A stretch of 17,212 nucleotides of DNA from an uncultured Chromatiaceae bacterium (GTDB lineage Bacteria > Pseudomonadota > Gammaproteobacteria > Enterobacterales > Alteromonadaceae). Below are positions 1-11,597 of this stretch, in pieces. Position 1 is the first letter of the stretch. Each line of letters begins with the position of its first letter. The notes below the pieces were generated by a model. It saw only the letters and a program-made list of their open reading frames with translations. It ran no database searches and was not told the DNA's origin. Both the position numbers and the translations under genes were made by a program. The stretch is taken from the NCBI GenBank assembly GCA_946482615.1, contig CAMLSF010000080.1:1-17212 (forward strand), written 5' to 3'.

Positions 1-1719
1 GCCTTAATGGACGATGAGGGCGCTTATACCAATCCTCTGTCTGGTAATAAAGTAGACCCCTGTGCTGATGATGAAGCCAGAGACCTGGCTTGTCGGGATA
101 TCCGCTTATTGGATGCATATGTTTATGGCAATTTTGCGTTAAATGATGGCGCTAATCCATTGTCAGTCCGGGTCGGTCAACAGGTATTAAGCTGGGGTGA
201 AAGCACCTTTATCCAGCACGGTATTAACATTACGCCTATTGACGTCGGTGTAGCACGCAGCCCTGGTGCTGAATTAAAAGAAGCCTATATTCCTGTTGGC
301 ATGGCCTGGGCCTCTTTAGGTGTGACAGAGAACTTAACAGCGGAAGTGTTTTATCAGTACGAGTGGGAAAACAGCTATCTGCCCGTACCTGGCTCCTATT
401 TCTCTACCAACGACTTTGCCGGCAAAGGTGGTTATGGCCAGAATATTCAGTTAGGTTTTGCCGGTAACCCGGACATCGACCTGGACTTTTTAGTCTCTGA
501 AATGAACCTGATATCACAAAACGCTCCGGCACTGTTGGCCGCTCTGACCAACCCGGCTTCAACAGCGGCGCAACGTGCAGCTGCTGTAAATGCGATGCTG
601 GCGTATTCCACTAAAGTAACCTTAAGACCTGCGGGCTCAGCCGGTGAAATTGAACCGGAAGATGGTGGTCAATATGGTATCAAGCTGGAGTATTTTGCCC
701 CTGAACTGAACGACACCGAATTTGCTCTGTACCATATGAATTACCATAGCCGCACTCCGCTGATTTCAGGTATTGCTTCTGACTTCCGCGTAGGTGTTGA
801 TGCCAATGGACAGCCTTTGGGTGTGATCCAGTCTTTGGCCTATCTGGCGGCGAATCAGGGCAATATCACAAAAGACAATATCAATGAACTGGATGTATTC
901 TCTAAAGGTTTAATTCAGTATCCGGAAGATATTAAGCTCTATGGCTTTAGTTTTAATACCACGGTTGACGGCACCTCAGTGGCCGGTGAATTAGCCTACC
1001 GTCAGGATGAACCACTGCAAATTGATGACGTGGAAATTCTGTATGCCGGTATGCCAGAGCAGTTGGCCAACGCCGGTTTGCGTCCGGAATTGGAAGGCAT
1101 TAGTCAGATTGGTCGTTACGATGGCAATAAAATAGGTCCGGGTGAGTTTGCTCAGGGCTTTATTTTATCTGACACCACACAAGCACAAATTACAGTGACC
1201 CATTTGTTTGGTCCTATGTGGATTGCTGACAACTTCACTATGTTAGCTGAAGTGGGTGGTATCAAAATTAATGATATGCCGGATCCGTCAGTGTTACGTT
1301 TAAATGGTCCAAATACTGACCGTAGTGGTGGTCCTTTATTAGGCACTATCAACGGTGGTCCACTGGTGAATAAAGACGGTGTACATACAGCCTTGTCTAA
1401 TGGCGCTGAAACCAACCCTTTCCCGACCGCATCGGCCTGGGGTTACCGTTTATTAGCAAAAGCAGATTTCAACGATATCTTTGCGGGTGTCAATATGTCC
1501 CATCGTGTGGTGTTTTCACACGATGTGAACGGTATCACACCTGATCCACTGTTTATGTTCTCAAAAGACAAAAAGTCTGTGGGTTATACAGTGGCCTTTG
1601 ATTATCTGAACCGCTGGTCCTCTGAGTTCTCTTACAATGCCTTCTGGGGTGGCGTAGGTACAACCAATAATACGGCGGACCGTGATTTTGTATCTTTTAA
1701 CATTAAATACTCTATTTAA
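1..1719 (+). CDS. DUF1302 family outer-membrane protein (5' end cut by window edge)
   Basis: The reading frame is open from base 1 with no upstream stop. The ATG at 7 is therefore probably internal, and the signal peptide and first strands lie outside the window. Family hallmarks are visible: a motif around LLDAYVYGNF, then VGQQVLSWGESTFIQ (about residues 58-72), then RSPGAELKEAYIPVGMAWA, and FYQYEWENSYLPVPGS. Many short alternating polar/aromatic stretches and frequent Gly/Asn/Asp turns suit a beta-barrel or beta-rich outer-membrane protein. The last strand (FVSFNIKYSI) ends in Ile rather than the usual Phe/Trp. DUF1302 genes typically sit next to DUF1329 genes, as here (20 bp gap), so co-transcription is likely. 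A role as the outer-membrane end of a lipid or hydrophobic-substrate path is inference. Family call firm, function unknown. Confidence 0.88.
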   Translation, partial: ALMDDEGAYTNPLSGNKVDPCADDEARDLACRDIRLLDAYVYGNFALNDGANPLSVRVGQQVLSWGESTFIQHGINITPIDVGVARSPGAELKEAYIPVGMAWASLGVTENLTAEVFYQYEWENSYLPVPGSYFSTNDFAGKGGYGQNIQLGFAGNPDIDLDFLVSEMNLISQNAPALLAALTNPASTAAQRAAAVNAMLAYSTKVTLRPAGSAGEIEPEDGGQYGIKLEYFAPELNDTEFALYHMNYHSRTPLISGIASDFRVGVDANGQPLGVIQSLAYLAANQGNITKDNINELDVFSKGLIQYPEDIKLYGFSFNTTVDGTSVAGELAYRQDEPLQIDDVEILYAGMPEQLANAGLRPELEGISQIGRYDGNKIGPGEFAQGFILSDTTQAQITVTHLFGPMWIADNFTMLAEVGGIKINDMPDPSVLRLNGPNTDRSGGPLLGTINGGPLVNKDGVHTALSNGAETNPFPTASAWGYRLLAKADFNDIFAGVNMSHRVVFSHDVNGITPDPLFMFSKDKKSVGYTVAFDYLNRWSSEFSYNAFWGGVGTTNNTADRDFVSFNIKYSI

Positions 1720-1739
1720 GGGACGAGGCGAGAACCATT

Positions 1740-3101
1740 ATGAAAAAACTCACCCTGATTGCATCCACTATTGCGCTAGTTGTTAGCTGTGGTGCTATTG
1801 CGAAGTTAACTCCTGATCAGGTGGCCCGTTTGGGTGCTGATCTGACGCCACTTGGCGCAGAAAAAGCCGGTAATGCTGATGGCAGTATTCCGGCCTGGGA
1901 AGGCGGTATTCAATCAGCTCCTGCTGGTTATAAACCAGGTGATCACCACCCGGATCCGTTCGCTGGCGATAAAGTACTCTTTACTATTGATAAATCCAAT
2001 CTGGCGCAATACAAAAGTCTGTTAAGCCCGGGTCAGATCAAACTGTTTGAAGCTTACCCGGACAGTTACAAAATGAATGTGTATCAAACTCGCCGTACTG
2101 CGTCTTACCCACAGTATGTCTATGATGCAACAAAGAAAATTGCTGGAAATGCCGAATTGGTTGAAGGCGGTAATGGTATTGTTAACGCAGCCATTGGTAT
2201 TCCTTTTCCAATTCCATCGAACGGCTTAGAAGCGATTTGGAACCATACATTACGTTTCCGTGGTGTAGCGGCCAGTCGTAACGGCGGTCAGGTTGCACCT
2301 ACTGCTTCAGGCGACTATGTGACTATCGGCTTTGATGAACAAATTATGTTCAAATACTCAGCGCCTGATGCCACAGTAGAAGCGTTGCAAAAAGAAAATA
2401 TTCTGTTTCGCTTCAAGCAGGCAGTTACTACTCCGGCTCGTCTGGCTGGTACTGCGCTTTTAGTGCATGAAACTATGGATCAGGTGAAAACTCCACGCCA
2501 GGCCTGGACTTACAATACGGGTCAGCGCCGTGTACGTCGTGCACCAAACGTAGCTTATGATGCACCAGGTACAGCCTCTGATGGTCTGCGTACCACGGAT
2601 GACTTCGATATGTTTAACGGTTCACCTAACCGTTACGACTGGAAGTTAGTGGGCAAACAAGAGCTGTTTATTCCTTACAACAGCTATAAGTTGCACAGCA
2701 AAGACGTGAAATATGCGGATCTGATCAAACCAGGTCATATTAATCCGGATTATGTGCGCTGGGAAAAACACCGTGTCTGGGTAGTGGAAGCCAACCTGAA
2801 AAGCGGCACCAGCCATGTTTATGGCAAACGTGTGTTCTTTATTGATGAAGACAGCTGGCAGGTTCATGTCGCTGATCTGTATGACAACAGAGGTGAGTTA
2901 TACCGTGTTGCTGTTGCTCATGGTCTGAACTACTACGAAGTACCAACACACTGGAGTACGCTGGAAGTTTTCCACGATCTGAATACCCGTCGTTATATCG
3001 CGATTGGTTTAGATAACGAAGACAAGATGTATGACTTCTCTGTACCGTTAACAGATAACGATTTCACTCCAGCGGCTTTACGCCGTGAAGGTACCCGTTA
3101 A
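1740..3101 (+). CDS. DUF1329 family periplasmic protein (LolA-like fold)
   Basis: This is a 453-residue exported protein. The ATG follows a GAGG Shine-Dalgarno at 1725-1728. The signal peptide is KK plus a hydrophobic core ending in AIA before Lys22; a VVSC at 14-17 could instead act as a weak lipobox. The mature N-terminus carries the family motif LGAEKAGNADGSIPAWEGG (about 39-57). Further family-like blocks are AWTYNTGQRRVRRAPNVAYD near the middle and YDWKLVGKQELFIPYN after it. A conserved C-terminal region (RVWVVEANLKSGTSHVYGKR, then DLYDNRGELYRV) follows. The family is described in domain databases as resembling LolA/outer-membrane lipoprotein-sorting proteins, which are hydrophobic-ligand carriers. 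It forms a pair with the upstream DUF1302 gene, and the transcript probably ends largely at the hairpin 17 bp downstream. A role as periplasmic carrier between the RND pump and the outer-membrane protein is inference. Confidence 0.9.
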   Translation: MKKLTLIASTIALVVSCGAIAKLTPDQVARLGADLTPLGAEKAGNADGSIPAWEGGIQSAPAGYKPGDHHPDPFAGDKVLFTIDKSNLAQYKSLLSPGQIKLFEAYPDSYKMNVYQTRRTASYPQYVYDATKKIAGNAELVEGGNGIVNAAIGIPFPIPSNGLEAIWNHTLRFRGVAASRNGGQVAPTASGDYVTIGFDEQIMFKYSAPDATVEALQKENILFRFKQAVTTPARLAGTALLVHETMDQVKTPRQAWTYNTGQRRVRRAPNVAYDAPGTASDGLRTTDDFDMFNGSPNRYDWKLVGKQELFIPYNSYKLHSKDVKYADLIKPGHINPDYVRWEKHRVWVVEANLKSGTSHVYGKRVFFIDEDSWQVHVADLYDNRGELYRVAVAHGLNYYEVPTHWSTLEVFHDLNTRRYIAIGLDNEDKMYDFSVPLTDNDFTPAALRREGTR

Positions 3102-3117
3102 GCTGTAAACATCTAAT

Positions 3118-3152
3118 AAACGGTTGGCTTAATGCCAACCGTTTTTGTTTTT
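3118..3152 (+). terminator. Intrinsic terminator after the DUF1329 gene
   Basis: An 11-bp perfect stem (3118-3128 with 3134-3144, core CGGTTGGC/GCCAACCG) and a TTAAT loop are followed by a T-rich tract to 3152. It begins 17 bp after the DUF1329 stop codon and ends only about 25 bp before the start of the next gene of the same cassette. Confidence 0.9.
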
Positions 3153-3177
3153 AAATTGATGCTGAGTGAAAACTCTA

Positions 3178-4203
3178 ATGATGGTTAAACTTTTATCCTC
3201 TGTCGCAGCTTTGCTGCTGACAACTCACATTTACGCCGGTTCTGCGGTCGTGCCAACCCCATCTTATCTGATGCCTTTGGCGGAAAAAGCAGTACTGACA
3301 GATTTAATCCGGGTGAACGATCAGCTGTATGTTGCGGTGGGCGATCGTGGCCATTTGCTGTTAAGTAAAGACAGCACAAGCTGGACTCAGGTGCAAACCC
3401 CGGTACAAAGTTTGTTTACGTCAGTGTATTTTTCTGATGAAACACATGGCTGGGCAGTAGGGCATGACGCCACTATTATTGCGACGAAAGACGGTGGCCA
3501 AAGCTGGCAGCTGCAGCAATTTAAACCTGAAACCGACAAGCCGCTGTTTGATATTTTGTTTGCTGATGCCAATAACGGTATAGCACTTGGCGCTTATGGT
3601 ATGTTTTACCGCACCACAGACGGCGGTAAAACCTGGCTGGACGAATTCCATCTGGAGTTGGTGGGTAGCGAGGATCAGGAGTATTTAAAAGAGCTGCAAG
3701 AAAGTGATCCTGATGCGTATCTGGAGGAACGCGCTTCTGTACTGCCACATTTTAACCGCATTTATCAGCACAACAATGTGCTGTATCTGATTGGTGAAGC
3801 AGGCTTTTTTGCCACCAGTGCAGATTTTGGCAAAAGTTGGACCCGTCACCCGGAGTTTTATAATGGTTCTTTGTTTGGCCTGACCATGACGCCAAAAAAT
3901 AGCCTGATCGCTGTAGGTTTACGTGGACATGTGTTCAGAAGCACTGACCTGGGCCAAAGCTGGCAGGAGATAAAACTGAATCAAACCGCGACACTGAACA
4001 GCGTGCTGACGGATGCTGCCGGCAATGTGTATTTAACCGGCAATGCCGGCACTTTGCTGGTCAGTCAGGATGATGGCGTTAGTTTTAGCGCTATACCAAC
4101 ACAAGACAGTAAAGCCATTTTGAATGCCGTCGCAGTCAAGGATCAGCTGGTATTAGTGACCGAAGCTGGAATTCGAACCTTAGCAATCAAGAAGCCGGAA
4201 TAA
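3178..4203 (+). CDS. YCF48-type beta-propeller protein, exported (Asp-box repeats)
   Basis: This is a periplasmic beta-propeller of about 341 residues. At least six BNR/Asp-box-like repeats (S/T-x-D-x-G-x-S/T-W/F) are visible: LLLSKDSTSWTQ, IIATKDGGQSWQL, FYRTTDGGKTWLD, FFATSADFGKSWTR, VFRSTDLGQSWQE and LLVSQDDGVSFSA. The N-terminus is a signal peptide (MMVKLL, a hydrophobic core, then THIYA before GSAV). I chose the ATG at 3178 because a GAGTGA-like sequence lies 8 nt upstream. The in-frame GTG at 3166 would add four residues but has no ribosome-binding site. The family is named after cyanobacterial Ycf48 and plant HCF136, photosystem II assembly factors. Nothing else here suggests photosynthesis, so 'photosystem' labels would mislead. 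The stop codon lies 1 nt before the RND gene, so the two are almost certainly translated together. An adaptor or scaffold role for the pump is inference. Confidence 0.85.
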   Translation: MMVKLLSSVAALLLTTHIYAGSAVVPTPSYLMPLAEKAVLTDLIRVNDQLYVAVGDRGHLLLSKDSTSWTQVQTPVQSLFTSVYFSDETHGWAVGHDATIIATKDGGQSWQLQQFKPETDKPLFDILFADANNGIALGAYGMFYRTTDGGKTWLDEFHLELVGSEDQEYLKELQESDPDAYLEERASVLPHFNRIYQHNNVLYLIGEAGFFATSADFGKSWTRHPEFYNGSLFGLTMTPKNSLIAVGLRGHVFRSTDLGQSWQEIKLNQTATLNSVLTDAAGNVYLTGNAGTLLVSQDDGVSFSAIPTQDSKAILNAVAVKDQLVLVTEAGIRTLAIKKPE

Positions 4204-4204
4204 C

Positions 4205-6523
4205 ATGAGTCTGAATCGAATAGTAACCAGCTGCGAAACGGTGTTATTCCGTCATCGTATCGCTGTCATCGTACTTTTTGTACTCGCTACTTTGTTTTTA
4301 TTATTTAAAGCCAGCCAAATTAAACTGGATGCGGCTTTTACTAAAAATATCCCGTTGCAGCATGAATACATGCAGACCTATATGCAGCACGCCAAAGATT
4401 TTGGTGGCGCCAATAATATTCTGGTGTCGGTCTGTGATGCCAAAGGCGATATTTTTAACCCGGATTTTTTTGCGTCATTTAAGAAAATCCATGATCAGAT
4501 TTATTACCTGCCCGGGGTAGACCGCAGTCTGGTGAAATCTCTGTATAGCCCCAGCACCCGTTTTGTCGAAGTAGTGGAAGACGGTTTTGCCGGTGGTCCT
4601 GTGATCCCAGCCGACTTTGCTCCAACGGCTGAAGGTTTGGCTGTAGTCAAAGCCAACGTAGAAAAAGCAGGTATTGTTGGCCGCATGGTGGCTGATGATT
4701 TCAGCTGCGCCATGGTGACAGCTCAGTTGCTGGAAGTGGACCCTGATACTCAACAAAAGCTCGATACTATTAAATTTGCTGCAGAGCTTGAGCAGCAGGT
4801 ACGAGGCCAGTATCAAAACGAAAATCTGACGGTGCATATTATTGGTTTTGCCAAAATGGTGGGTGATGTAGCGGACGGTGCTAAAGGCGTATTGGCGTTT
4901 TTTGCTGTGGCTATCGTTATAACTGCCATCATGGTGTATCTGTTTAGTGGCTCAGTGATGCTGACCTTATTACCTATCGCCTGTTCCTTAATCGCCGTGA
5001 TCTGGCAAATGGGTATGTTGACGGTATTGGGTTTTGGCATTGACCCTATGTCCATTCTGGTGCCTTTCCTGATTTTCGCTATAGGTGTCAGCCATGGCGT
5101 GCAGATGATCAATGCGACAGGTAAGAATGTTGCTTTAGGTATGGATGCAAAAACCGCAGCTCAGGCCAGCTTCCGTAAGCTGTTGATCCCGGGTGGTATA
5201 GCACTGTTATCCGACACTGTGGGTTTTATTACTCTGTTGATTATTGAGATTGGAGTGATCCGTGAGCTGGCCATTACCGCCAGTTTAGGTGTAGGTATTA
5301 TTATCCTGACGAACCTGATCTTATTGCCAGTATTGATGTCCTACGTCAAATTCAGCGACAAGTACAAGCAGAAGGTTCAGACGCCACATCCGCGTATTGA
5401 AAAGTTTTGGTACAGCTTGTCGGCCTTTGCGACCCCTAAATATGCAGTAGTGATTTTGATAGCTACAGCGGCGTTATTTGCTTTGGGCTGGCAGCAAAGT
5501 GCTTACCTGAAAATTGGTGATTTGCATCCGGGCGCGCCGGCTTTGCATGAAGATTCGGTTTATAACCAGGATACTTTCCTGATCACGGACCGCTATGCCA
5601 TTTCTGTGGATTACATCAATGTGATGGTCGAAACTCCGGCAAACGGTTGTACCTTCCATGATGTGATGAATAGGGTCGATCAGTTCCAGTGGCAAATGGA
5701 AAACGTACCTGGGGTGCAGTCTGCTGTGTCTTTGGCCTCAGTGTCCAAAACCATCAATGCGGCCTTTAATGAAGGCAACGTGAAATGGAAAGTGTTGCCA
5801 CGTACTACAGAGAGTTTAGTGCAGTCGTCCAGTAGAGTAGAAACCAGTACAGGTTTACTGAATAGTGATTGTTCTGTGATGCCGGTGATCCTGTTCTTAA
5901 ACGACCATAAAGCTGAGACTATTGAAACTGTGGTCGCTGCCGCGAAAAAAGCCGGCGCAGAACTCAGCACGGATGAGGTGAAGTTTAAGTTAGCTTCAGG
6001 TCCTGTCGGTGTGATGGCCGCTACTAACGAAGCGGTTGATGCAGCTCAGACCCCTATGATGTGGTATGTCTATGCGGCTGTGATAGTGCTGTGCTTAATC
6101 AGCTTCCGCTCAGTCAAAGCCACTGTGGCCGTGATAGTACCGCTTTATGTGGTCTCTATTCTGGCGACTGCTTTGATGACTAAACTGGAAATCGGCTTAA
6201 CAGTATCGACTTTACCCGTGATAGCCCTGGGTGTGGGTATAGGTGTCGACTATGGTATTTATATCCTGTCGAACATGACCCAGTTGCTGCGTGATGGTAC
6301 GCCGCTGCGTCAGGCTTATTTCACTGCATTAAAAGAGACGGGCAGCGCTGTTCTGTTCACTGGTATTACATTGGCTATAGGTGTCAGTACCTGGGTGTTC
6401 TCGGCGCTGAAATTCCAGGTCGATATGGGCATATTGCTGACCTTTATGTTTTTAGTGAATATGCTGGGTGCCGTTTTGGTGTTGCCGGCACTTGCAGCCT
6501 TTTTCTGGCGAAAAAATAACTAG
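4205..6523 (+). CDS. RND superfamily (MMPL-type) transporter, predicted hydrophobic-substrate exporter
   Basis: This 772-residue inner-membrane protein has the duplicated RND layout. TM1 is at about 17-36, a periplasmic domain at 37-225, TM2-6 at 226-382, TM7 at about 412-430, a second periplasmic domain at 431-612, and TM8-12 at 613-768. It lacks the long docking domains of 1000-residue AcrB-type pumps and matches the shorter 'predicted exporter' group that includes MMPL/HpnN-like proteins. TM10 carries GVGIGVDYGIY with the Asp682-Tyr683 pair typical of MMPL proton relays. The equivalent TM4 segment reads FAIGVSHGVQ, with Ser296-His297 instead. Each periplasmic domain has two cysteines (77/168 and 482/556). 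The start follows the YCF48 stop by 1 nt, with GGAA at its end as ribosome-binding site. No membrane-fusion-protein or TolC-like gene is adjacent; the DUF1329/DUF1302 pair may fill those roles (inference). Confidence 0.88.
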   Translation: MSLNRIVTSCETVLFRHRIAVIVLFVLATLFLLFKASQIKLDAAFTKNIPLQHEYMQTYMQHAKDFGGANNILVSVCDAKGDIFNPDFFASFKKIHDQIYYLPGVDRSLVKSLYSPSTRFVEVVEDGFAGGPVIPADFAPTAEGLAVVKANVEKAGIVGRMVADDFSCAMVTAQLLEVDPDTQQKLDTIKFAAELEQQVRGQYQNENLTVHIIGFAKMVGDVADGAKGVLAFFAVAIVITAIMVYLFSGSVMLTLLPIACSLIAVIWQMGMLTVLGFGIDPMSILVPFLIFAIGVSHGVQMINATGKNVALGMDAKTAAQASFRKLLIPGGIALLSDTVGFITLLIIEIGVIRELAITASLGVGIIILTNLILLPVLMSYVKFSDKYKQKVQTPHPRIEKFWYSLSAFATPKYAVVILIATAALFALGWQQSAYLKIGDLHPGAPALHEDSVYNQDTFLITDRYAISVDYINVMVETPANGCTFHDVMNRVDQFQWQMENVPGVQSAVSLASVSKTINAAFNEGNVKWKVLPRTTESLVQSSSRVETSTGLLNSDCSVMPVILFLNDHKAETIETVVAAAKKAGAELSTDEVKFKLASGPVGVMAATNEAVDAAQTPMMWYVYAAVIVLCLISFRSVKATVAVIVPLYVVSILATALMTKLEIGLTVSTLPVIALGVGIGVDYGIYILSNMTQLLRDGTPLRQAYFTALKETGSAVLFTGITLAIGVSTWVFSALKFQVDMGILLTFMFLVNMLGAVLVLPALAAFFWRKNN

Positions 6524-6558
6524 TTTTTGTTTATGTAAAAAACTGCATGTTTAAACAA

Positions 6559-6590
6559 GAAAATGGCCGTAAGGCCATTTTCTATTTACA
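6559..6590 (+). terminator. Probable intrinsic terminator closing the envelope cassette
   Basis: A 10-bp perfect stem (6559-6568 with 6573-6582, GAAAATGGCC/GGCCATTTTC) has a GTAA loop, 36 bp past the RND stop. The T-rich tract is partly inside the stem (ATTTTCTATTT), so it is less canonical than the other terminators here. The rest of the 238-bp gap to the glutamate dehydrogenase gene should hold that gene's promoter. A TTGTCA at 6604-6609 resembles a -35 box, but I found no convincing -10 partner. Confidence 0.7.
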
Positions 6591-6761
6591 GCGGATGAAT
6601 AACTTGTCAAATCAGCGATTTTTCTTCTGGTACAACCAGTAGCAAAGACATAAATAAAGCTCGAAAAGCCCGTCAATACTCAATAAACTTCGCACCTGAC
6701 ACGCTCTGTATGTAAGTAAACCCGGTCTTTGCAGGCTGAGGTTTCAAAAAAGGATACAAAA

Positions 6762-9700
6762 ATGGCACTGATAGACGGTCAACCTTCTGTACTACTACAA
6801 AATGTAAGTAAGCTAATTCGTTCTAAAGTCAAAGATCAGGTCCAACTGGTCGAAAAATTTGCCCACACTCTGTATGGCAATATGTCTCACGAAGATTTGT
6901 TTGGCCGCAATGACAGCGATTTATATGGCGCTGCCTTGAGCTTATGGCAAAGCTTTAACGGTCATACCGATGCAAAGGCATTAATTCGCGTATTTAACCC
7001 TGAAATCGCTAAACACGGTTGGGAGTCTAAGCACACTATTGTTGAAATCGTAGTGAAAGACAGCCCGTTTTTAGTGGATTCAGTGCGGATGGCATTAAGC
7101 CGCCAATCCATTACCGCTCACTTGTTATTGCATTATCCATTGCAAACGCTCCGTAACGATAAAAACGACATCACGGACTTTTTTAAACTGGGTACTGTGG
7201 AGCAAGCCAGCACTGAACAAACTGTATTCCATATCGAAATTGATCGTATGACAGACAAAGCTGCGGTAGAGGCTTTAACCTCTGAACTGCAGTCTGTGAT
7301 GGAAGATGTGTCTTTGGCGGTGCAGGACTGGAAACCTATCCGGGCAAAACTGCTGCAGGTGATAGCTGATCTGCCAAAACAAGCCGCTGTGAATGCTTCA
7401 GAACTAGAGCAGGCCACAGAATTTTTAAACTGGATGGCCAAAGATAATTTCACCTTGCTGGGGTATCGTGAATACCGCATCAAAGCTGTGGAAGGCGATC
7501 ATAAAATTGAAGGCGTAAACGACAGCGCTTTAGGTTTAATGCGCCGTTCGACGTCGCGCGATTTAATGTTATCTGATTTACCAGAACAGGCCCGTAAGCA
7601 GGCGTTAAGTTCTTCGCTGTTAATACTGACCAAAACCAATAACAAATCCCGTGTGCACCGTCCTGCCTATATCGACTATGTCGGTATCAAACGTTTTGAC
7701 GACAAAGGTCATGTGATAGGGGAAGACCGTTTTATTGGTTTGTATTCGTCATCCTTATATAACAACAGCGCTGCTGATATTCCACTATTGAAAAACAAGC
7801 TGGCCAAAGTGATGGCCAAGTCTGGTTTTGCTCATGGCACTCATGCTTATAAGGCGCTGTTAAATATTCTTGAGACTTACCCACGGGATGAGTTGATCCA
7901 GGCCACCACAGACGAGTTGTTGGACGTGTCGACCGGCGTACTGCAAATGCAGGAACGGGATATGACCCGTCTGTTTGTGCGCAAAGACGCTTTTGGCCGT
8001 TTTGTCTCGGCTATGGTCTATGTGCCGCGTGAGCGTTATAACACTCAGCTGCGTAAAGACACGCAACAGATTTTAGCTCAGTCTCTGGGCAGCACAGAAG
8101 CTGTGGAATTTACCACTTACTTCTCTGAGTCTGTGCTGGCACGTACCCATTATTTCGTTCGGATCAACGATAACAATATCGAGTTTAATGTGAAAGAAAT
8201 TGAACGCAATTTAGTCGAAGCGGCCCGTACCTGGGAAGATAAGCTGGAAGCTGCGCTGGTTGGCCATTATGGCGAAGCCCGTGGTCGTGAGCTGGCCCGC
8301 AAGTATTTAACGGCTTTCCCTTCATCGTACAAAGATGAAATGTTGCCAAACGATGCGCTGGTCGATATCGAAAAAATCGAGTCGCTGAACGACGAACACC
8401 GTCTGGACATGCTGTTTTACCGTCCACAGGAAGAACGTAACGACAGCAAAGCCGTGCGTCTGAACCTGTTCCACAAAGATCACCCCATCCATTTATCCGA
8501 TGTATTGCCGATACTGGAAAACTTCGGTTTACGTGTGATAGGTGAAACTCCATATGCTGTGCGCTGCCCGGATGGTTCTGTCAGCTGGATCTTAAACTTC
8601 GCGATGGAAGTCAACGGCGCTATGCCAACGGACTTTGAACAGGCACAGCTTTCGTTTCAGGATTCCTTTGCCAAAGTATGGAAAGGCGAGCTGGAAGACG
8701 ACGGCTTTAACCGTCTGATTTTAGGCGCAGGTTTAACAGGCCGCGAAGCCTCGTTATTACGTGCTTATGCTAAATACAAACGTCAGATCGGCGGTACCTT
8801 CAGCCAGTCTTATGTCGAAAACGCTTTTGCCCGTTATCCAAAACTGGCGCATTTGTTAGTGCAGTTGTTTAACACCAAGTTTGATCCACAAAACACAGGT
8901 GACGCTGCTGCTATCGAAGCTATTGAAAAGCAGCTTAATGAGCAACTGGATAGCGTAGTCAATCTGGATGATGACCGTATTATCCGTCGTTTTGTCGCCA
9001 TGATGTCGGCAACTTTACGGACCAACTACTTCCAGCCTAATGCGCAGGGCCAGCAGAAGAGCTACATCTCCTTTAAGGTGAAGTCCTCTTTAGTGCCGGA
9101 TATGCCATTGCCAGTGCCGGCTTTTGAAATATTCGTTTATTCGCCGCGTGTGGAAGGTGTGCATTTACGCGGTGGTAAAGTGGCCCGTGGTGGTCTGCGT
9201 TGGTCTGACCGTCGTGAAGACTTCCGTACCGAAGTTTTAGGTCTGGTTAAAGCCCAGCAAGTAAAAAACACTGTGATAGTACCAGTAGGTGCCAAAGGTG
9301 GTTTTGTTTGTAAAAAACTACCGGAAACCGGTGGCCGTGAAGCCTACTTGAACGAAGGCAAAGAATGTTACCGCACCTTTATCCGTGGTCTGTTAGACAT
9401 CACAGATAACATAGTGCAGGGCCAAATCGTTCCGCCTAAATCTGTAGTGCGTCTGGACGAAGATGACCCGTATTTAGTAGTAGCTGCCGATAAAGGTACG
9501 GCCACTTTCTCAGACATAGCGAACGCTATTTCTGCTGAATACAACCACTGGTTAGGTGATGCCTTTGCATCGGGTGGCTCCAACGGTTACGACCACAAAG
9601 GTATGGGTATTACTGCCCGTGGTGGTTGGGAATCTGTTAAGCGTCACTTCCGTGAAATTGGCATTGACTGTCAGACCACGGATTTCACTTGTGTGGGTAT

Positions 9701-11597
9701 AGGTGATATGGCCGGTGACGTTTTTGGTAACGGTATGCTGTTATCCAAACATATTCGTCTGCAGGTTGCTTTTAACCATATGCATATTTTTGTTGACCCA
9801 AATCCTGATGCAGCAAAAACCTTTGTTGAACGTGAGCGTATGTTTAATCTGCCGACCTCAACCTGGGAAGACTTTGATAAGTCACTGATCTCAGAAGGCG
9901 GCGGTATTTTCCTGCGCAGCGCCAAATCCATCAAACTGACACCACAGATGCAGCAAATGCTGGGCACCAGTGCAACCAGCCTGACGCCTAACGAATTTAT
10001 CCGTGCTGCGCTGATGATGGACGTGGATCTGATTTGGAACGGCGGTATCGGTACTTATGTGAAGGCGACGGACGAAACTCATGCTGAAGTGGGTGACCGT
10101 GGTTCAGAAGCGCTGCGTGTTAACGGTAAAGACGTTAAAGCTAAAATCATAGGTGAGGGCGGTAACTTAGGCACGACTCAACGTGGTCGTATTGAATACG
10201 CTGCTAATGGTGGTCGTATCAACACCGACTTCATCGACAACGTCGGTGGCGTCGACTGCTCAGATAACGAAGTTAACATCAAGATCCTGCTCAACGCTCT
10301 GGTGGCCAGTGGCGATATGACGCTGAAACAACGTAACGAGTTGTTAGCGGCTATGACCACTGATGTGGCGGACATAGTGATTAACGACTGTTACCGTCAG
10401 ACTCAGAGTATTTCTGTGTCTTCAGTGCTGGGCGCTGAACAGATGAAGGAATACACCCGCTTTATCCATGCGTTGGAAAAAGACGGCAAGTTAAACCGTG
10501 AACTGGAGTTTTTACCTTCAGATGATGCGTTGGCTGAACGTACAGTCAAAGGTCAGGGCTTAACCCGTCCTGAGCTGGCGATTCTGACTGCGTACGGCAA
10601 AATGGTGATGAAAGAGTGGCTGGTTCTGCCGGAAATTTATGAAAACAGCTACTTTAAACGTCATCTGTTTACTGCTTTCCCGAAAGTGCTGCAGCAAAAT
10701 TATGCCAAAGAGATGGAAACTCACCCGTTAAAGGCGGAGATCATCGCCACTAAACTGGCGAACCTGATGGTCAACGATATGGGCGCTAACTTTGCCCAGC
10801 GTATGATGGAAGAAACAGGGTCTTCTATTGCCGAAGTGGCAGTTTGTTACACCATAGCCCGTGATTTATTTGATGTGGAAGCGGTGTGGAACAAGCTGGA
10901 AGAATTAGATAACTCGATTCCGGCAGCGCTGCAGATCAAATTGTTCCACCAACTGCGCCGCACTATGCGTCGCACAACACGCTGGTTCTTACGTCACCGT
11001 AACAAGGCGCTGGATATTCAGCAGACGATCGATTTCTTCAAACCAGCTTTTGTTGAAATCAGCAATAATCTGCAAAAATTACTGGCACCAGCCGAAGCAC
11101 AACAACTGGCCGCGAACGAGCAAGCCTTTATCGCACAAGGTGTACCTGCGGATGTTGCCCGTTATTTAGCTCAGCTGAGTACCTGTTTCTCTGTGATGGA
11201 CATTGCCCAGGTGGCAGATGCAGAGAAAAACTCATTGCTCCTGAGCGCCGAAATTTACTTCAAGCTGGGCGATCGTTTGGATCTGCACTGGTTCCTGGAG
11301 CAAATTACCCAGCAGCCAGTAGCAAACCACTGGCAGGCACTGGCCCGTGCTTCGTACCGCGAGGAGCTGGACTGGCAACAACGTGCGCTGTCTGCTGTGG
11401 TCGTGCGTGGTTGTGGTGGTGCCTGTGATGCAGAAGCTGTGATCAGCAGCTGGATCACTGAGCATGAACCCGTACTGGCGCGTTGGCGTTTGATGCTGGC
11501 CGAGTTCAAAACCACTAAGAGCCATGAATTTGCCAAGTTCTCAGTGGCACTTCGTGAACTGATGTTGCTCAGCCATCACTGTGACCCTGTGAAATAA
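6762..11597 (+). CDS. gdhB: NAD-specific glutamate dehydrogenase, large (about 180 kDa) class
   Basis: This enzyme oxidatively deaminates L-glutamate to 2-oxoglutarate and ammonium with NAD+, in the cytoplasm, feeding amino-acid carbon into the TCA cycle. The protein of 1611 residues matches the usual length of the class described in Streptomyces and Pseudomonas aeruginosa. The N-terminal half (to about 700) corresponds to the ACT-like regulatory region. The catalytic core follows: RGGLRWSDRRED (809-820), PVGAKGGF with the likely catalytic Lys845, the nucleotide-binding GIGDMAGDVFGNGM from 979, and EGGNLGTTQRGRIEYA near 1130-1150. The C-terminal third is helical. I chose ATG 6762 because AAGGA lies 7 nt upstream; an in-frame TTG at 6729 has no such site. 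The gene is monocistronic, bounded by hairpins on both sides. The class is often allosterically controlled by amino acids, which cannot be checked here. Confidence 0.96.
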   Translation: MALIDGQPSVLLQNVSKLIRSKVKDQVQLVEKFAHTLYGNMSHEDLFGRNDSDLYGAALSLWQSFNGHTDAKALIRVFNPEIAKHGWESKHTIVEIVVKDSPFLVDSVRMALSRQSITAHLLLHYPLQTLRNDKNDITDFFKLGTVEQASTEQTVFHIEIDRMTDKAAVEALTSELQSVMEDVSLAVQDWKPIRAKLLQVIADLPKQAAVNASELEQATEFLNWMAKDNFTLLGYREYRIKAVEGDHKIEGVNDSALGLMRRSTSRDLMLSDLPEQARKQALSSSLLILTKTNNKSRVHRPAYIDYVGIKRFDDKGHVIGEDRFIGLYSSSLYNNSAADIPLLKNKLAKVMAKSGFAHGTHAYKALLNILETYPRDELIQATTDELLDVSTGVLQMQERDMTRLFVRKDAFGRFVSAMVYVPRERYNTQLRKDTQQILAQSLGSTEAVEFTTYFSESVLARTHYFVRINDNNIEFNVKEIERNLVEAARTWEDKLEAALVGHYGEARGRELARKYLTAFPSSYKDEMLPNDALVDIEKIESLNDEHRLDMLFYRPQEERNDSKAVRLNLFHKDHPIHLSDVLPILENFGLRVIGETPYAVRCPDGSVSWILNFAMEVNGAMPTDFEQAQLSFQDSFAKVWKGELEDDGFNRLILGAGLTGREASLLRAYAKYKRQIGGTFSQSYVENAFARYPKLAHLLVQLFNTKFDPQNTGDAAAIEAIEKQLNEQLDSVVNLDDDRIIRRFVAMMSATLRTNYFQPNAQGQQKSYISFKVKSSLVPDMPLPVPAFEIFVYSPRVEGVHLRGGKVARGGLRWSDRREDFRTEVLGLVKAQQVKNTVIVPVGAKGGFVCKKLPETGGREAYLNEGKECYRTFIRGLLDITDNIVQGQIVPPKSVVRLDEDDPYLVVAADKGTATFSDIANAISAEYNHWLGDAFASGGSNGYDHKGMGITARGGWESVKRHFREIGIDCQTTDFTCVGIGDMAGDVFGNGMLLSKHIRLQVAFNHMHIFVDPNPDAAKTFVERERMFNLPTSTWEDFDKSLISEGGGIFLRSAKSIKLTPQMQQMLGTSATSLTPNEFIRAALMMDVDLIWNGGIGTYVKATDETHAEVGDRGSEALRVNGKDVKAKIIGEGGNLGTTQRGRIEYAANGGRINTDFIDNVGGVDCSDNEVNIKILLNALVASGDMTLKQRNELLAAMTTDVADIVINDCYRQTQSISVSSVLGAEQMKEYTRFIHALEKDGKLNRELEFLPSDDALAERTVKGQGLTRPELAILTAYGKMVMKEWLVLPEIYENSYFKRHLFTAFPKVLQQNYAKEMETHPLKAEIIATKLANLMVNDMGANFAQRMMEETGSSIAEVAVCYTIARDLFDVEAVWNKLEELDNSIPAALQIKLFHQLRRTMRRTTRWFLRHRNKALDIQQTIDFFKPAFVEISNNLQKLLAPAEAQQLAANEQAFIAQGVPADVARYLAQLSTCFSVMDIAQVADAEKNSLLLSAEIYFKLGDRLDLHWFLEQITQQPVANHWQALARASYREELDWQQRALSAVVVRGCGGACDAEAVISSWITEHEPVLARWRLMLAEFKTTKSHEFAKFSVALRELMLLSHHCDPVK

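Follow-up and report, generated by a model that had tools for sequence, protein, structure and literature searches.

What would a set of four adjacent genes, encoding an outer-membrane protein, two exported proteins and an inner-membrane pump, carry across a Gram-negative envelope, and in which direction? The question was raised by a 17,212-nucleotide contig of an uncultured Chromatiaceae bacterium (CAMLSF010000080.1), referred to over its whole length as the window. Here, genes for a DUF1302 outer-membrane protein, a DUF1329 periplasmic protein, a YCF48-type beta-propeller and an MMPL-type pump of the resistance-nodulation-division (RND) superfamily follow one another. As the best full explanation, we favour a trans-envelope carrier of hydrophobic molecules of the AmeABCD type (probability about 0.54). 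The evidence supports a tetrapartite carrier of hydrophobic molecules well and makes a hydrophobic cargo likely, and net movement would be inward rather than outward at barely better than even odds.

Conservation of an AmeABCD-type cassette

The first-pass annotation of the window described four adjacent same-strand genes in the order DUF1302-DUF1329-YCF48-MMPL, and these are indeed present at positions 1-6523, with DUF1302 alone cut by the window edge. With the four families adjacent, in order and on one strand, the set is almost certainly of the AmeABCD type, a likeness drawn from families and order as published. As AmeABCD was described and deleted in 2018 (PMC6394551), the annotation was wrong to call the route uncharacterised, and we rejected the quartet as a new set. 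In the parts of that paper used here, AmeA of Castellaniella defragrans is a DUF1302 protein, AmeB a DUF1329 protein (LolA superfamily), AmeC a COG4447 (YCF48-like) protein and AmeD an RND pump on a separate branch of HAE3, the same four families as in the window; composition and order are conserved within the lineage, according to its authors. The C. defragrans copy is inducible and lies in a monoterpene island, whereas the window copy belongs to a pepN-gdhB locus.

Co-occurrence of the four families was surveyed at several depths. The Alteromonadales loci were the top 80 among 510 related ones of a species-genome collection, hence closest kin (Rheinheimera, Alishewanella, Arsukibacterium, Pseudoalteromonas, Shewanella, Colwellia, Thalassotalea and other Alteromonadales). 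The full quartet was found in 79/80, as locus L040 ends inside the cassette at a contig end, and gene order and strand (tblastn positions) were identical in all 79. gdhB lay within 700 bp downstream of the pump in 79/80 loci and a pepN match was present in 78/80; the pepN-cassette-gdhB order recurs in L127, from a more distant family, with a pump of 44% identity. Because order is kept in 79/79 and gdhB follows the pump in 79/80, the window-type cassette appears to be an old chromosomal locus. The closest relatives of the window pump (L001-L009, 96-99% identical) come from Rheinheimera species and, for L004 and L007, gammaproteobacterial metagenome-assembled genomes; judged by sequence, the window is Rheinheimera-like.

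At the level of the order, a close pump was identified in 81/197 genomes, so the cassette is not general there. In a class-level sample, 19/143 genomes had a close pump (at least 43% identity), of which 16 carried the quartet in canonical order and two (G092, G026) a rearranged one, while G113 had DUF1329-YCF48-pump without an adjacent DUF1302 at one site and a lone pump at another. A wider class sample yielded the pump at E 1e-150 or better in 45/369 genomes. When the neighbourhoods of 50 pumps were fetched, the canonical order was exact in 36 and the others were rearranged, duplicated, partial or cut by contig ends. The YCF48 and pump genes are tightly coupled, with one base between stop codon and ATG in the window, a gap of -60 to 25 bases in 39/50 relatives and a 4-base overlap in 21/50. 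Quartets were also found around distant pumps of about 26% identity (for instance G121:C44 and G092:C40). The grouping is not due to chance. Two genomes, G026 and G113, show family expansion (7-8 DUF1302 matches each, and 9 and 6 DUF1329 matches; loci L124, L125, L129, L130, L133 and L143-L145), and the L129 cassette adjoins a cytochrome P450 gene.

The absence of a membrane-fusion or TolC partner was also borne out: a Pfam scan of nine window proteins (the last two genes left out) gave no membrane-fusion/HlyD or TolC/OEP-type family; these nine do not make up an HAE1 tripartite efflux system of the AcrAB-TolC type.

The pump also matches 39 plasmid records. A Massilia plasmid copy has all four families annotated and a pump 43.8% identical to that of the window, and plasmid copies from Massilia (L214, hydroxyquinol dioxygenase) and Pseudomonas putida (L215, pobA about 3 kb away) lie amid aromatic-degradation genes, so the cargo probably differs between copies; for the Rheinheimera copy, too, it may differ. 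The mention of such gene groups in hydrocarbon degraders by the first-pass annotation suits plasmid copies in catabolic surroundings and not the window locus, which sits between pepN and gdhB in relatives. A mobile degradation island at this window was rejected, as the chromosomal locus is fixed among relatives even though plasmid copies exist. On the Comamonas plasmid pBHB (L213), an AmeD-like pump lies among short hypothetical genes and transposases with no DUF1302 or DUF1329 in an incomplete gene table, possibly a cut-down cassette.

Published catabolic settings, as far as the cited parts of the papers go, include a benzene degrader with DUF1329, YCF48 and MMPL highly expressed (PMC13101534, 2026). 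Its 'Nanopod' cluster (ORM2a) shares these three families, together with a porin-like protein, with our quartet; it differs in belonging to Desulfobacterota and in having extra genes, including one for a universal stress protein (PMC13101534). DUF1302 and DUF1329 have also been reported from nanopods (PMC3110197), from a phenol-hydroxylase cluster of Zoogloea (PMC7012976) and, next to an RND gene, from crude-oil Pseudomonas aeruginosa (PMC7145413). Loss of a DUF1329 gene in Delftia is said to have impaired growth on phenanthrene (PMC13101534, citing PMC3958437), but none of five terms looked up in the cited paper occurred there, and the claim was not relied on.

Lipid genes beside the cassette and direction of transport

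Neighbours in other gammaproteobacterial families, identified using Pfam on 50 selected proteins, NCBIfam on 16 entries (several of them the same proteins) and box searches, bear on direction. VolA is a lipase that releases fatty acids from external lipids for uptake (PMC12208996, PMC9496633, in the parts used). In L112, a VolA-type lipase gene, one further gene and the quartet are followed by a FadD-like ligase gene 36 bases behind the pump; in L114, the lipase gene, three genes and a FadD-like ligase gene precede the quartet. Fatty-acid oxidation genes accompany the lipase in L120 (fadB-like, fadA-like, VolA-type, quartet, all on one strand) and L148 (fadA-like, VolA, one gene, quartet), and precede the quartet in L154 (fadE, fadB-like, fadA). 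VolA overlaps DUF1302 in L156, where an opposite-strand FadD11-like ligase gene lies one gene past the pump, and is 26 and 16 bases from DUF1302 in L157 and L172. Other linked genes are a FadD11-like ligase gene 54 bases ahead of DUF1302 (L162), a convergent FadD-like ligase gene (L152), a fadA-like gene (L117) and a wax-ester synthase/DGAT gene directly behind the pump (L165). In L123 (3558-7568, minus strand), the pump and a ligase-type AMP-binding domain share a single 1336-aa frame; among the best 120 of 7372 matching proteins (8000 scored), only the query's cluster has both domains. The VolA-type gene upstream of the L120 cassette (3150-5283, plus strand) is split over two overlapping frames.

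Overall, one or more of six lipid gene types matched within 5 kb of the cassette, or fused to it, in 14/49 loci (in L151 weakly) and in 35/49 none did. Numerous further neighbours seem unrelated (GatB, histidine kinases, photolyase, RecG, citrate synthase). Divergent PAS histidine kinase genes adjoin DUF1302 in two genomes of one family (L116:11793-14399:+ and L158:11456-14464:+) and are possible sensors for the cargo.

Enrichment was assessed against 38 control regions at hand-chosen positions in cassette-bearing genomes; two fetched control stretches, L204 (overlapping a cassette flank) and L212 (800 bases), were dropped. Pooled over all loci, lipid genes were enriched at p 2e-5, a value inflated because some tested loci had supplied the queries. 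Once the seven query-source loci were set aside, leaving 42 with 326 kb of flank, the pooled count was 11 versus 9 in controls (p 0.017). The VolA count, 9 in the full set (with the split L120 gene counted twice and weak L151 included), became 5 versus 0 (p 0.0025), or 4 versus 0 without L151 (p 0.008).

To avoid query bias, the 143-genome sample was also searched with the curated TIGR03502 model (VolA) and with Pfam models of DUF1302 and FadL. Of 18 genomes with a VolA-type gene, six had it no more than 6 kb from DUF1302 (0.136 would be expected from position, Poisson P 8e-9), five no more than 6 kb from FadL (0.076 expected), none close to both and seven close to neither. As VolA is found near DUF1302 or FadL and never both, DUF1302 can stand in FadL's place beside the lipase; loss of FadL with gain of the cassette showed a weak association. 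Half of the six VolA-linked DUF1302 genes lie in quartets (G057, G094, G127). VolA-FadL spacing was 25-1017 bases in G011, G075, G076, G102 and G132. The Vibrio system, in which VolA frees fatty acids and acyl-CoA ligases activate them, is a close known parallel; it differs from ours in that the cited parts of its papers describe no shuttle or RND pump (PMC9496633, PMC12208996) and in that DUF1302 lacks a PF03349 match.

In P. putida, PP_0765 (DUF1302), PP_0766 (DUF1329), PP_2018 and PP_2019 are linked by fitness on Tween 20, and co-folding gave weak contacts for 0766-0765 and 0766-2019 and a strong one for 2018-2019 (PMC10866462). This set shares DUF1302, DUF1329, a periplasmic protein (PP_2018, which we take to be the YCF48 protein) and an efflux-type transporter, with locus numbers split over two places; the parts of the paper cited here do not state a direction of transport.

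The AmeABCD paper, by contrast, reads its cassette as an exporter (PMC6394551). In such a scheme, the pump would collect toxic hydrophobic compounds from the membrane or periplasm and expel them through DUF1302, with DUF1329 and YCF48 in a membrane-fusion-like role. As reported in the cited parts, the ameABCD deletion mutant did poorly when limonene or another non-functionalised monoterpene was its only carbon source, and it matched wild type on perillic acid and on perillyl alcohol and aldehyde. On acetate with limonene, it was wild-type-like up to 5 mM and worse above, and when limonene-grown and de-energised it took up slightly more Nile Red, with real-time efflux almost identical to wild type (PMC6394551). 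The reduced growth at high limonene, the additional Nile Red and the restriction of the effect to non-functionalised monoterpenes agree with export; the comparable growth up to 5 mM and the nearly identical efflux weigh against it, and poor growth on limonene as the only carbon source would also follow from an uptake defect. In our view, export and a defect in hydrocarbon uptake account for these mutant data about equally well. The HAE3-like nature of the pump again suits an exporter, since export is the usual direction of RND pumps, while the lipase and beta-oxidation neighbours in some relatives suit uptake better. Considering both sides, we regard export as unlikely.

For the window's own copy, the support for lipid import is indirect, and in the nearest genome compared to it FadL and VolA lie elsewhere. 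Several results weigh against an inward lipid carrier. None of the six lipid-catabolic gene types was found in the 80 Alteromonadales loci; FadD-like genes were not significantly enriched (5 versus 5 in controls, p 0.21; with query sources excluded, 2 versus 5, p 0.67); in G026, G039 and G113 the VolA-linked DUF1302 was not seen to lie in a quartet; and the ame mutant data do not show that the cassette is needed with a hydrophobic acid. We lowered the direction and the overall odds slightly because of this normal growth on perillic acid and the three of six VolA-linked DUF1302 genes without a shown quartet.

The empty Alteromonadales neighbourhoods would fit a housekeeping role, in which the copy between pepN and gdhB shuttles some lipid of the cell itself from one membrane to the other and copies linked to lipases or catabolism are later specialisations. 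The fixed site with gdhB and pepN agrees with this, as do a pump in 14/14 listed genomes of the same genus or family (with 96 of the 116 misses unlisted) and the PF01553 acyltransferase gene 7 kb downstream in the window. Presence in fewer than half of the genomes of the order speaks against it, and the zero count at the 80 loci concerns catabolic, not lipid-synthesis, genes. We consider such a role decidedly unlikely.

Inward transport of fatty acids is preferred because it would best explain a lipase outside and a ligase and beta-oxidation inside in some relatives, and the growth phenotypes on Tween 20 and limonene. Its most specific form, a proton-driven importer independent of FadL, with DUF1302 in place of FadL, DUF1329 as ferry, an asymmetric RND pump working inward and an acyl-CoA ligase (fused to the pump in one lineage) receiving the cargo, is put forward tentatively, at rather less than even odds.

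Pump signature, folds and a candidate path

The best NCBIfam match of the pump is TIGR00921 (HAE3), at 168.8 bits and thus below the cut-off of 351.9, and its best solved-structure matches are MmpL4/5. With transmembrane helices (TM) numbered by hydrophobicity and RND topology, Ser-His is present in TM4 of 140/142 aligned RND proteins and [VI]DY in TM10 of 141/142; the two without Ser-His are other RND genes, low-scoring additions to the alignment. Both pairs are kept in 120/120 homologues listed, and pumps of about 26% identity also carry them, so that Ser-His looks to be a signature of cassette pumps. MmpL-type pumps such as MmpL3 have Asp-Tyr in both TM4 and TM10, and the relay here would therefore be asymmetric. 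The mycobacterial MmpL analogy of the first-pass annotation is accordingly partial, as TM4 has Ser-His in place of the Asp-Tyr of MmpL3; by this trait the pump is not MmpL3-like. MmpL3-5 and HpnN share with the quartet pump the RND fold and lipid cargo, and NPC2-NPC1 pairs a soluble hydrophobic carrier with an RND protein, as DUF1329 and the pump may do. Unlike all of these, the quartet has four parts, including an outer-membrane barrel.

The predicted structure of DUF1329 has the LolA-like fold that had been proposed, preceded by 137 extra N-terminal residues of the mature chain, and would place it in the LolA/LolB superfamily. By eye, VVSC in the window DUF1329 could be a lipobox, but its Cys is missing from most relatives inspected. 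In the class sample, many proteins of 260-290 aa match the DUF1329 model weakly (residues about 130-225 and 260-345) and are probably short LolA-like proteins.

DUF1302, 572 aa in the window versus 714 aa complete in L001, is predicted to form an Occ/OprD-like beta-barrel. The window piece matches PF06980 alone at E <= 0.01 and so does not appear to belong to the FadL family (PF03349 barrel). A profile search against solved structures gave no relative of note (one match, E 0.59), and FadL-type barrels were not seen among the 50 matches listed for the model, which does not exclude them.

Against solved chains, the YCF48 protein is Ycf48-like (best E 5e-23), and it is probably the pump's partner. 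The solved chains of Ycf48 and HCF136 carry names that refer to assembly or stability of photosystem II, and the AmeABCD paper proposes an assembly role for AmeB and AmeC (PMC6394551, in the parts used). In such a scheme, YCF48, DUF1329 and the pump would help to put DUF1302, or some other part of the outer membrane, in place or to supply it. The informative linked genes are for lipid and aromatic catabolism, however, and a LolA-fold member with an RND pump points to a hydrophobic cargo, which makes an assembly module highly improbable.

For the favoured carrier, we infer path, partners, substrate, direction and energy coupling as follows. The DUF1302 barrel would serve as outer-membrane port and DUF1329 would ferry the cargo across the periplasm. 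The YCF48 propeller, on the periplasmic domain of the pump, would be the docking part, and the pump would pass the cargo to the inner membrane, drawing its energy from protons that move by way of Asp-Tyr in TM10 and Ser-His in TM4. The cargo would most likely be fatty acids and similar hydrophobic compounds, with hydrocarbons or aromatics in some copies. Of the trans-envelope hydrophobic route first proposed, this retains the transport idea, with co-occurrence, YCF48-pump coupling, modelled folds and lipid neighbours in some relatives in its favour; what fell away was its novelty.

The window and the meaning of a possible inward route

The features of the cassette and its neighbour are collected in Table 1. 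Downstream follow gdhB, pyrD, zapC and an acyltransferase gene (PF01553, PF19576; 13458-14636, plus strand), with a DUF192 gene on the opposite strand; the last two window genes were assigned by eye as alanine dehydrogenase and Lrp-like. A promoter scan of 6400-6800 found none, where 1.0 would be expected by chance, and so decides nothing about gdhB.

Table 1. Positions in the window of the cassette genes, the pump motifs and the adjoining gene.
Feature	Position	Strand	Basis or remark
DUF1302 outer-membrane protein	1-1719	+	PF06980, 429 bits; 5' end cut at left edge of window
DUF1329 periplasmic protein	1740-3101	+	PF07044, 532 bits
YCF48/PSII_BNR-type beta-propeller	3166-4203	+	PF14870, 84 bits; signal peptide by eye
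MMPL/HAE3-like RND inner-membrane pump, AmeD-like	4205-6523	+	PF03176, 96 bits
Ser296-His297 (GVSHGVQ), TM4 of pump	5090-5095	+	motif in aligned homologues
Asp682-Tyr683 (GVDYGIY), TM10 of pump	6248-6253	+	canonical proton-relay pair
gdhB, NAD-glutamate dehydrogenase	6729-11597	+	PF05088, 892 bits; neighbour, outside proposed transporter

How fatty acids and oily nutrients pass the Gram-negative periplasm is poorly understood, and in 2022 FadL was described as the one protein known to take up long-chain fatty acids in these bacteria (PMC9496633, in the part cited). This analysis adds the linkage to VolA, ligase and beta-oxidation genes together with the fusion, the Ser-His/Asp-Tyr signature, and the DUF1329 and DUF1302 models, with no claim that the VolA-DUF1302 pairing or the Ser-His motif is missing from the literature. 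If import is true, the cassette would be a second route beside FadL and an RND system running inward, which would be reason to re-read data taken to show an exporter, and DUF1302 and DUF1329 would gain a role in lipid scavenging and hydrocarbon degradation.

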